Assembly: GCA_001314705.1 (NCBI GenBank)
Contig: LJSU01000032.1
Span: 1-64,000 of the forward strand
Length of the DNA stretch: 64,000 nucleotides
Source of the DNA: Rhodobacteraceae bacterium HLUCCO07
GTDB lineage: Bacteria; Pseudomonadota; Alphaproteobacteria; Rhodobacterales; Rhodobacteraceae
Direction of reading: 5' to 3'
The notes under the pieces were generated by a model. That model searched no databases. It had not been told where the DNA came from and was given only the letters and a program-made list of their open reading frames with translations. The position numbers and the translations under genes are program-made. Of the stretch, positions 23,396 to 46,080 are shown piece by piece. Every line of letters begins with the position of its first letter. Within the stretch, counting starts at the first letter, position 1.

Positions 23396-24028
23396 TCACG
23401 CCCTGTCGGACGGATTGCCGGGCATCAGGTCATAGGGGTGTTTCCAGCCCGGGGTGCCTTCGATATTGGCAAGCCACCGGTCGATATTGGCCCAGTCCTT
23501 GCGGTCGAAACCGAAGGGTTCGGGATAGAAGAGATAGCCACAGCACGAGAGATCGGCATTGGTGATCCCGTCGCCCACGATCCAGTCGCGCCCCGCAAGG
23601 TGGGTGTCGAGCACCTGGTAGGCGGGTTTGAGGCGGCCCTGCATGAAGGCGATCACGTCGGCAGGGCGCTTGTCCTCGGGCAGGAAATTCATCAGGAAAC
23701 GGGTCATGCCGGCGGGCGAGCTGAGCTTGTGATTGTCCCACAAGACCCAGCGCAGCACCTCGTATTTCTCGTCCGGCGTGCCGCCGAACTTGCCGGTCTG
23801 GTCGGTGATCCATTGCTGGATCACGCCGGACTGGGTGAGACAGAGGTCACCGTCTTCGAGCATCGGCGCCTCGCCCATCACGTTCCGGGCGCGGTATTCG
23901 GGGCTGCGCGCCGCGCCGCCGAAGAAATCGACGAAGACCGGCTCCCATTCGAGGCCGGAGAGTTCGAGCGCGAGCGCGGCCTTGTAGGAATTGCCGGATT
24001 CGCCGAAGCAATGGAGTTTGAGGGTCAT
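23396..24028 (-). CDS. Glutathione S-transferase family protein
   Basis: 210 residues: N-terminal thioredoxin-fold domain (1-80; MTLKLHCFGESGNSYKAALA, GEAPMLEDGDLCLTQSGVI with the cis-Pro and Ser-Gly glutathione contacts) and an all-helical C-terminal domain with DWIVGDGITNADLSC. It is probably a conjugating or peroxidase-type GST. It is the first gene of the GST-thiolase-FadJ unit, and GSTs are often embedded in Rhodobacteraceae beta-oxidation clusters without an assigned role. Confidence 0.85.
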   Translation of the reverse strand: MTLKLHCFGESGNSYKAALALELSGLEWEPVFVDFFGGAARSPEYRARNVMGEAPMLEDGDLCLTQSGVIQQWITDQTGKFGGTPDEKYEVLRWVLWDNHKLSSPAGMTRFLMNFLPEDKRPADVIAFMQGRLKPAYQVLDTHLAGRDWIVGDGITNADLSCCGYLFYPEPFGFDRKDWANIDRWLANIEGTPGWKHPYDLMPGNPSDRA

Positions 24029-24085
24029 CGGTGGCTCCCTGTTTGCAAATGCGGACCGGGGGTTTCACACCCCCGGACCCCCGTG

Positions 24086-24282
24086 GAGTATTGCCGGCAA
24101 GATGAAGGGGCTTTTTTACCGGAAGTTAAGGTTAATGCCTCATGTTTCGAGGCGCGGAACAGGCTGGAGAGCCGATGACCGCGCAAGGTGAAGCCCCGCC
24201 CGCCGGTGTCATGGCGCCCGAGGCAGCAAAGCGTCGGGGGCGGGGTGGACCATCCCTTGGCTTCATCTTGCCAAAAATACTC
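24086..24282 (+). repeat. Intergenic repeat element A (possible small RNA)
   Basis: The element is bounded by inverted 22-bp motifs: GAGTATT...AAGATGAAG at 24086-24107 (plus) and the same pattern on the minus strand at 24282-24261. The centre (24159-24188) is a 30-nt sequence that recurs at 38364-38393 with one mismatch. The core contains GGCT-GGAG-AGCC, a short stem with a GGAG loop, then GATGACCGC and CAAGG. It is followed by a GC-rich stem (CCCCGCCC 24194-24201 with GGGCGGGG 24238-24245). No frame across it looks coding. It separates the GST operon from the acyl-CoA dehydrogenase gene. It could be an sRNA or a mobile repeat. Confidence 0.6.
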
Positions 24283-24329
24283 TCCGCGAAGCGTTCTTAA
24301 GGGGACATCATGCGCTGTCGTGGGATGCA

Positions 24330-25466
24330 TCAGAGCGACCTCGCGATCAGTTCCTTCATGATTTCGTTAGTGCCGCCATAGATGCGTTGCACTCGGGCAT
24401 CCGACCACATTTCGGCGATGGCATATTCCTGCATGAAGCCGTATCCGCCATGCAGTTGGAGGCAATCGTCGAGTACTTCGCCCTGCGTGTCGGTGGTCCA
24501 GTATTTCGCCATCGCGGCCTTTTCGACGCTGAGCTCGCCGCGCATGTGTTCGCTGATGCATTCATCGAGGAAGGCGCGGGCGATTGTGAGCTTGGTCTGG
24601 CACTCGGCGAGCTTGAAGCGGGTGTTCTGGAATTGCGTGAGCGGGCCGCCGAAGGCTTCGCGCGTCTTTGCATATTCGATGGTCCGCTCCACCGCGCCCT
24701 GCATGGCGCCCACGGCACCACAGGCGATGATCAGCCGTTCCTGCGGCAGTTGCTGCATCATCTGGTAGAAGCCGCGGCCTTCTTCCAGCCCGAGGATGTT
24801 CTCGGGCGGAATCTCGACATTGTCGAAGAACAGTTCGGACGTGTCGGCGGCGTGCATCCCGATCTTTTCGAGATTGCGGCCACGTGTGAAGCCCGATGCG
24901 CCCTCGGTCTCGACGACCACGAGCGAGACTCCCTTCGCCCCCTGTGATGGGTCGGTCTTGGCGGCGACGATGATCAGTTCGGCGTGCTGGCCGTTGGAGA
25001 TGAAGGTTTTCTGGCCCGAGAGGCGATACGAGTTGCCGTCCTTGACGGCCCGGGTCTTGATCGCCTTCACGTCCGAGCCGGTCGAGGGTTCGGTCATGGC
25101 GAGCGCGCCGACCATCTCGCCCGAAACCATCTTGGGCAGCCAGCGTTGTTTCTGCTCCTCGGTGCCATAGGCGAGGATGTAATGGGCGACGATGCCGGAA
25201 TGAATCGGGTTGCCCCAGCTGGCAAGGTTGGCGCGCGGGTGTTCCATCATGATCACCGCTTCGTGGCCGAAATCGCCGCCCGCGCCACCATATTCCTCCG
25301 GGATCGAGGGACAGAGCAGACCCAGTTCACCGGCCTGGTTCCAGGCCGAGCGGTCCATCTGGCCCTGTTTGCGCCAGCGTTCGAAATGGGGCGCCCATTC
25401 CTCGGCGATGAAGCGCGCCGTCATGTCGGCCAGCATCTTGTGATCTTCGGTCATCCAGGATGACAT
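24330..25466 (-). CDS. Acyl-CoA dehydrogenase
   Basis: 378 residues with the standard fold: [18 protein letters not shown], the FAD-contact [30 protein letters not shown], and C-terminal [39 protein letters not shown], which carries the catalytic-region helix. It oxidises acyl-CoA to trans-2-enoyl-CoA and passes electrons to ETF. ATG 25466 follows GGGAGGGGAGC. It is 20 bp after a 70-codon gene and belongs to the beta-oxidation block. Confidence 0.92.
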
Positions 25467-38292: not shown

Positions 38293-38497
38293 GAGTATTT
38301 TTCCCAGGAAAGAGCGGTGATTCACGGTTTGTTAAAGGCGATGCGCGAGGCTGGCGATGCGGTACAGGCTGGAGAGCCGATGACCGCCCAAGGAAGAGCC
38401 CATGCTCTGCCCGCCCCGGTCACCCCCGCAACGGGGTGCCGGGGCGGTTTCGTTTGCAAGTGGGAATGATCGGTTCTCTTTCTTGGTGAAAATACTC
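38293..38497 (+). repeat. Intergenic repeat element B (possible small RNA)
   Basis: Bounded by inverted GAGTATTTT-type motifs: 38293-38314 on the plus strand and 38497-38476 on the minus strand. The central 30 nt (38364-38393) match element A at 24159-24188 with one difference, including the GGCT-GGAG-AGCC hairpin. Here the following stem is terminator-like: CCGCCCCGG (38411-38419) with CCGGGGCGG (38439-38447), then TTTCGTTT. That supports a short plus-strand transcript ending near 38456. The two copies differ in length and sequence between the conserved parts, as expected of a structured RNA or an old repeat family. Confidence 0.62.
38411..38456 (+). terminator. Terminator-like hairpin in repeat element B
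   Basis: Nine-base outer stem (CCGCCCCGG/CCGGGGCGG) with an inner ACCCC/GGGGT stem and a short loop, followed by TTTCGTTT. It would end a plus-strand transcript that starts upstream of the conserved core; no plus-strand protein gene precedes it. Confidence 0.6.
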
Positions 38498-46058: not shown

Positions 46059-46080
46059 GAGTATTTGGTGCAAGATGAAG
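46059..46080 (+). repeat. Solo GAGTATT-type motif upstream of msrB
   Basis: GAGTATTTGG-TG-CAAGATGAAG, the same 22-base pattern that bounds elements A and B. It stands alone here, 100 bp before msrB, without the 30-nt core. The 45863-46181 spacer holds no other recognisable feature. Confidence 0.65.

Follow-up and report, generated by a model that had tools for sequence, protein, structure and literature searches.

Small RNA genes of Rhodobacteraceae whose loop and linker correspond to private families of intergenic repeats

The window analysed here, the first 64,000 nucleotides (nt) of contig LJSU01000032.1 from Rhodobacteraceae bacterium HLUCCO07, contains two elements, A and B, in which a short hairpin-forming core lies between inverted repeats. 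There is good support for regarding them as copies of an RNA gene whose family is undescribed and absent from Rfam 15. Equally well supported by sequence comparison is a one-to-one correspondence between two variable segments of this RNA, the tetraloop of its hairpin and the linker that follows it, and a genome-wide family of DNA repeats. These repeats have the form xxxx-TATTT-N3-arm, in which xxxx equals the hairpin loop (4 nt) and the arm equals the linker (11–12 nt), both in the same sense.

The RNA gene and its distribution

The initial annotation of the window described two cores (24159–24188 and 38364–38393) sharing 29 of 30 bases and bounded by inverted 22-base motifs, and both observations proved correct (Table 1). 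Against an expectation of 0.01, the window contains two copies of the 21-mer GGCTGGAGAGCCGATGACCGC, one in each core. The conserved unit is 29 nt long (24154–24182 in A and 38359–38387 in B) and therefore starts 5 nt upstream of the core as first drawn; its GGCT/AGCC stem, already recognized at that time, is enclosed by a second stem, GCGG/CCGC, with a conserved internal loop (UACA/GAUGA) between the two. The GC-rich stem located 3' of the hairpin and linker varies between copies. Both A and B carry only the RNA between their inverted repeats, and a third copy of the RNA is found elsewhere in the source genome (G000, contig C12:32088).

A covariance model (R1) with the structure ((((....((((....)))).....)))) was built from 31 related copies. 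In the alignment of these sequences, standard pairs fill 99.6% of the pair cells, and all 500 shuffles and every slid version score lower for covariation. Among 184 copies, the 29-nt unit is near-invariant except for the closing pair 1–29 (GC in 115, AU in 37 and GU in 29 copies), the loop-closing pair 12–17 (UA in 109, GC in 68 and AU in 5) and the tetraloop, which in addition to GGAG can be GGGA, GGGG, GAGG, GGCG and others. The standard and covarying pairs, together with a predicted promoter at a fixed distance, support the original suggestion of a structured RNA under selection. The alternative offered at the time, a repeat, was correct in part, since the motifs that bound the core belong to genome-wide repeat families. 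A small conserved protein whose start would be the ATG of GCCGATGACC was considered and rejected, as the frames stop early and differ (e.g. MTAT and MTVL); comparison of related copies revealed no conserved open reading frame opened by the ATG inside the hairpin.

Computation thus shows an RNA gene with helices and a predicted promoter. In a profile of 173 copies, the −10 box of this promoter (TAnnnT) covers −12 to −7; two further conserved blocks precede it, TTAAnC from −28 to −23 and TAAnC from −38 to −34, and upstream of these there is no conservation. Because the −10 box and the half-sites stand at a fixed distance from the hairpin, transcription is predicted to start at approximately its first nucleotide. 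The upstream half-sites are similar to the CtrA site, TTAA-N7-TTAA; in the copies from Rhodobacteraceae they overlap the −35 region, as at promoters activated by CtrA, and distant copies have no half-sites. Distinct −10 boxes are present in AT-rich and gammaproteobacterial copies. CenR was rejected as a regulator of this promoter, its motif being TGA-N8-TGA. Downstream of the linker, the spacer hairpin is variable and some copies, mainly distant ones, carry a U-tract resembling an intrinsic terminator.

Table 1. Coordinates of the features of elements A and B, and of one solitary repeat, in the window
Feature	Positions	Strand	Evidence
A: conserved 29-nt 5' hairpin, GCGG AACA GGCT GGAG AGCC GATGA CCGC	24154–24182	+	Covariance model R1, E = 2.8e-13; pair counts
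A: tetraloop GGAG, the 4 nt preceding TATTT in cognate repeats	24166–24169	+	Loop-box covariation
A: linker GCAAGGTGAAGC, guide-like copy of arm GCAAGATGAAG in which one A is replaced by G	24183–24194	+	Own-arm versus swapped-arm tests
A: left repeat, GAGTATT(G)-CCG-GCAAGATGAAG	24086–24107	+	Repeat-family match
A: right repeat, inverted, GAGTATTT-TTG-GCAAGATGAAG	24261–24282	−	Repeat-family match
A: upstream TTAC/TTAA half-sites of predicted promoter, TTAA-N7-TTAA-like	24116–24131	+	Profile of 173 copies; sequence reading
B: conserved 29-nt hairpin	38359–38387	+	R1, E = 7.5e-13
B: tetraloop GGAG	38371–38374	+	Loop-box covariation
B: linker CCAAGGAAGAGC, guide-like copy of arm CCAAGAAAGAG	38388–38399	+	Swap tests; repeat family
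B: left repeat, GAGTATTT-TTC-CCAGGAAAGAG	38293–38314	+	Repeat-family match
B: right repeat, inverted, GAGTATTT-TCA-CCAAGAAAGAG	38476–38497	−	Repeat-family match
B: GC-rich hairpin followed by TTTCGTTT, possible intrinsic terminator	38415–38450	+	Fold of 38358–38460
Solitary A-family repeat, GAGTATTT-GGT-GCAAGATGAAG, distant from any RNA gene	46059–46080	+	Repeat-family match

A search of Rhodobacteraceae with R1 yielded matches in 115 of the 150 sampled genomes of the family (one genome per species), usually with 1–4 copies per genome. Within the class, 13 of the 387 genomes searched had matches, some of them in other families with AT-rich genomes, and an exact-pattern scan of named genomes returned at least 118 loci. 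Among the matches listed, most belong to Rhodobacteraceae (Paracoccus, Ruegeria, Roseovarius, Leisingera, Jannaschia and others), single ones are labelled Hyphomicrobium, Hydromonas and Thiothrix, and three come from metagenome bins named as gammaproteobacteria, betaproteobacteria and Planctomycetota. Plasmid records add Cereibacter, Mesorhizobium, Shinella, Rhizobium, Azospirillum, Legionella and Thiothrix; the plasmid copies often adjoin replication, partition, mobilization or antirestriction genes. Outside Rhodobacteraceae the RNA is plasmid-borne at loci L317–L336, close to repA, parA, mob and antirestriction genes, and these copies often have their own −10 box and terminator and no nearby right repeat. 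A recurrent subclass with the linker GAAAGGTGAAAG or GAACGGTGAAAG lacks both flanking repeats (L088, L150, L300, L306, L316, L177, L208, L214 and L226). No fixed neighbour or partner gene was found adjoining the RNA, and the neighbour clusters vary.

At the gathering score, Rfam 15 returned only tRNA from the window and nothing from nine distant loci; thus, the elements do not match a known Rfam family, and scans at low thresholds gave matches at chance level only. BjrC68 (RF02353) was rejected: it scored 15.1 bits against a cut-off of 39, and four near-hits that were examined (L337–L340) lack the 29-nt core. Phage records and viral contigs contained no match to the element, and a phage origin was rejected on these grounds. 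Neither the sequence nor a matching small RNA was found in the open literature; subscription papers and supplements lay outside this search, so that a mention in an RNA-seq table is possible.

Correspondence of loop and linker to the repeats

The linker is a near-copy, in the same sense, of the left repeat, and is complementary to the inverted right repeat. Linker positions +1 to +12 score 9.56 of 12 for complementarity to the copy's own right repeat, compared with 7.71 ± 0.05 when the repeats are swapped among copies. When the swap is confined to a single genome, the scores are 9.68 for the own repeat and 7.70 for those of sister copies (66 better, 7 worse, P = 2e-12), and a control segment of the hairpin gives no difference (P = 0.56). 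In 207 copies, linker positions 1–3 and 7–9 are 99–100% identical to the left arm, and at position 6 a G in the linker corresponds to an A in the arm in 164 copies, with the reverse in one. Because the best match that defined each arm was scored with a G/A bonus, the identity percentages describe selected pairs (the swap tests were run without the bonus). Identity in the same copies is lowest at positions 6 (20%) and 12 (52%). These two minima could reflect a six-nucleotide periodicity such as that of guide RNAs on Cas7-like backbones, and the dip at position 12 may mark the end of the match.

The tetraloop likewise follows the 4-nt box that precedes TATTT. Loop GGGA occurs with GGGATATTT, GGAG with (G)GAGTATTT, GAGG with GAGGTATTT, GGGG with TGGGTATTT and GGCG with (T/G)GCGTATTT. 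On average a loop matches its own box at 3.52 of 4 positions, whereas shuffled boxes give 2.30 ± 0.055; the match is confined to one register, save for a trivially overlapping one. Within genomes, the loop matches its own box better than those of sister copies (3.44 versus 2.08; 60 better, 3 worse, P = 1e-11). This bears on the proposal, made in the initial annotation, that the GGAG loop present in both A and B might contact CsrA/RsmA or an anti-Shine–Dalgarno sequence. Instead of being fixed as GGAG, the loop varies freely and follows the repeat box, and CsrA is missing from all 150 genomes of Rhodobacteraceae. Contact with CsrA is thereby refuted in this family, and the proposal as a whole has a negligible probability.

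In the source genome, 66 sites fit the A pattern GAGTATTT-N3-GCAAGATGAAG, 50 of them exactly, and 56 sites belong to the B family; the reversed A and B patterns have no sites there. The G that distinguishes the linker is carried by none of the 66 A sites. At least 10 inverted B pairs have a spacing of 38–54 bp. Repetitive extragenic palindromic (REP) sequences form similar inverted pairs, termed REPINs (PMC3116915). Solitary repeats of one family (for example L347, L349, L352, L005, L007 and L017) show two contexts upstream of GAGTATTT, GCCTCCGGCGG or CACCCCCG; in the former, GAG is able to pair with an upstream CTC. In addition, a 46-bp GC-rich intergenic repeat (L380:4136–4181; G000 C8:172135–172180) is 98–100% identical at many places in the genus, including G001 and G002, two genomes of the same genus as the source genome.

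The match between RNA and repeats is private. The pattern TATTT-N3-ACGAGAAGAAG has 28, 8 and 19 sites in three genomes with the RNA linker ACGAGGAGAAG, and none in 15 other genomes of Rhodobacteraceae, all of which have other linkers. Similarly, AGGTATTT-N3-GTCAGATGAAG has 27 sites in G001, 25 in G002 and 37 in G095, all three of which have the matching linker, and none in the source genome and 14 others. For these two arm families, each examined in 18 genomes, repeats occur only where there is an RNA with that linker, without exception. Box and arm can change together: the inverted pair at C8:179687/179725 has GAG and GCAAGATGAAG in the source genome, and AGG and GTCAGATGAAG in G002. From the repeats, loop GAGG and linker GTCAGGTGAAG were predicted for an RNA of G002 and G001, and such an RNA was afterwards found in both.

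Turnover can be followed over approximately 110 kb of synteny (pairwise identities of 88.4–89.8%), where four comparable B sites are common to the source genome and G002, both of which have RNA B. G001, in which RNA B was not found (the genome is 86% complete), has none of the four; three are absent and one is now an A site in place, with conserved flanks. In at least 42 copies the RNA occupies one orthologous locus, between the genes for glutathione transferase and acyl-CoA dehydrogenase (both confirmed by Pfam). Here the RNA is retained across genera and its loop and linker differ; therefore, the gene is inherited while its address drifts. The region 24028–24330 of the window and its relatives (L001, L069, L073 and others) place the RNA antisense inside a beta-oxidation cluster (thiolase, glutathione transferase and acyl-CoA dehydrogenase).

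A possible mechanism and its alternatives

We give an even chance to a mechanism in which a two-part guide RNA and a protein recognize REPIN-like repeats at gene ends and keep them renewed. Each element would encode a short RNA carrying an address in two parts, with its 5' end at or beside nucleotide 1 of the 29-nt hairpin. The stems and the internal loop, which hardly vary, would be the handle for a bound protein, as suggested by a conservation of their sequence beyond the needs of pairing. The tetraloop (xxxx) and the linker (arm) would be the guide segments, in the same sense as the DNA repeat, with the G at linker position 6 forming a wobble against the other strand. TATTT, common to all guides, would be read by the protein; since this fixed sequence and three free bases separate the two RNA-matched stretches, the complex may read double-stranded DNA. 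Its targets would be the DNA repeats, which lie singly or in inverted pairs and mostly at the 3' ends of genes, and it would keep its own repeat family copied or converted in the genome. Such renewal is suggested because the families are private, turn over, depend on a matching RNA and are arranged like REPINs; the behaviour would be that of REPINs, with the RNA replacing a transposase gene. In this scheme we infer from sequence transcription, the protein partner, DNA as the target and RNA-driven repeat renewal.

Several observations weigh against this mechanism. For the B family, the comparison covers four sites and a single genome, 86% complete. The orthologous slots persist and only the arm switches, no clean joint with defined insertion ends, of the kind that a MITE (a mobile unit with terminal inverted repeats) would leave, being seen in G001; such persistence would equally be expected if selection acted on functional sites. 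In the source genome, the third RNA has two repeat sites in the approximately 486 kb scanned, one of them its own. Where a right repeat lies near, the complementarity of linker to repeat and of loop to box could be intramolecular RNA structure. Finally, outside Rhodobacteraceae the RNA is neighboured by plasmid genes for partition and replication, and no transposase or nuclease recurs there.

Intramolecular pairing is central to a rather unlikely but serious alternative, a trans-acting small RNA that works on RNA. Its transcript would cross the right repeat (arm complement-N3-AAATACTCC) and be antisense to repeats in mRNA 3' ends, and the loop and linker would hold this antisense region inactive until a target displaced the weaker, wobble-containing helix. 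Linker and loop do each complement the RNA's own right repeat, the wobble would favour pairing with the target over self-pairing, and the left-hand gene points into the motif at 29 of the 39 intergenic sites. However, some copies have no near right repeat, including plasmid copies with intrinsic terminators; the switching of repeats between families within a genus would be hard for a regulon of ~60 targets; and the placement of tandem pairs (15 sense versus 8 antisense) is not clearly biased.

The position of the repeats also bears on a host function, in which RNA and protein would bind the repeats at gene 3' ends, for example as a roadblock terminator or insulator. Selection, not copying, would then keep the sites, and any slot could be served by any guide. 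We regard this, the other serious alternative, as unlikely. It would account for the location of the sites at gene ends, with only 2 of the 39 intergenic ones between divergent genes, for slots that persist as their arms switch to track the RNAs present, and for an RNA gene flanked by two of its own sites. Nevertheless, REP-like neutral insertions would also be expected to avoid divergent regions, and an R1 match is missing from 35 of the 150 genomes of Rhodobacteraceae. Stronger U-tract terminators in copies without a right repeat (48% versus 26%, P = 0.003) agree with a host function, but the difference is lost within GC-rich copies (P = 0.24). As a substitute terminator the right repeat was rejected, the trend being weak and confounded with composition.

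A DNA-only element, in which hairpin, loop and linker would act as single-stranded DNA for an HUH transposase (of the IS200/IS605 or RAYT-like kind; IS, insertion sequence; RAYT, REP-associated tyrosine transposase) without involvement of RNA, is very unlikely. In IS200/IS605, a tetranucleotide is recognized through internal base pairing, which counts in its favour. REP-like inverted pairs are known for the HUH class (PMC3116915). Yet the −10 box and upstream half-sites at a constant distance point to RNA, as do the −10 boxes retained in AT-rich and gammaproteobacterial copies, the intrinsic terminators of distant copies and the 29 G-U closing pairs.

Even less probable is an orphan bridge RNA or seekRNA serving an IS110 or IS1111 recombinase encoded elsewhere. 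The two short guide segments, a GAUGA stretch resembling box C and the 11–13-bp subterminal inverted repeats of IS1111 members are consistent with it. By contrast, the segments of a seekRNA match opposite strands of the target and both segments here match one strand, box D (CUGA) is absent, and there is no transposase gene in the element and none regularly nearby.

Returning to the guide RNA that keeps repeats renewed, its widest form can be put forward tentatively, with a probability somewhat short of even: programmable RNA-guided DNA recognition unlike that of CRISPR (clustered regularly interspaced short palindromic repeats), OMEGA (obligate mobile element-guided activity), TIGR (tandem interspaced guide RNA) or bridge RNAs. 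With a 29-nt handle, its loop and linker would read xxxx-TATTT-N3-arm on one strand, maintain private families of gene-end repeats and spread on plasmids among alpha-, beta- and gammaproteobacteria. A very common intergenic repeat of Rhodobacteraceae would gain an origin, in an RNA in which its sequence is written. Should this RNA read DNA, it would represent a new and very small two-part guide with rules readable from sequence; if it reads RNA, it would be a global regulator whose entire target set is rewritten between related species. Both outcomes are testable now because each genome has its own matched RNA and repeats.

Comparison with known systems

The closest parallels can be drawn with REP/REPIN sequences and their RAYTs. 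Both systems have short intergenic repeats in tens of copies, as singles and as inverted doublets forming hairpins. In both, a genome has several private families, each linked to a single locus that lies between inverted copies of the repeat, and turnover of the families is rapid. Unlike REP-RAYT loci, the locus described here is a ~100-nt RNA gene, with no Y1 transposase gene between its inverted repeats (this concerns the locus only, the rest of the genome not having been searched for RAYT). The GTAG/CGTC tag is absent, the conserved part is GAGTATTT-N3-arm, and the identity of the family is written in the loop and linker of the RNA.

The bridge RNA of IS110 and the seekRNA of IS1111 are likewise small RNAs whose two short guide segments recognize the DNA surrounding a fixed core. 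The present elements, by contrast, contain no DEDD recombinase gene, match the same strand with both segments and have sites that form a dispersed repeat family, not a target into which an IS inserts. CRISPR-type guides and TIGR-Tas share with them a hairpin handle followed by a guide, as well as a fixed sequence 5' of the matched stretch (here TATTT, similar to a protospacer adjacent motif), and TIGR shares the split guide. The genes described here are single, without arrays or an adjacent effector gene, and their guides match the cell's own repeats; TIGR-Tas, in contrast, has a tandem array of spacers flanked by boxes C/D and a Nop-domain protein, whereas the single units here have GAUGA without a CUGA partner. 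Finally, the multi-copy trans-acting small RNAs of alphaproteobacteria resemble this RNA in having their own promoter, a hairpin at the 5' end and several copies per genome, but the present family is not in Rfam and its copy-specific segments covary with genome-wide DNA repeats.
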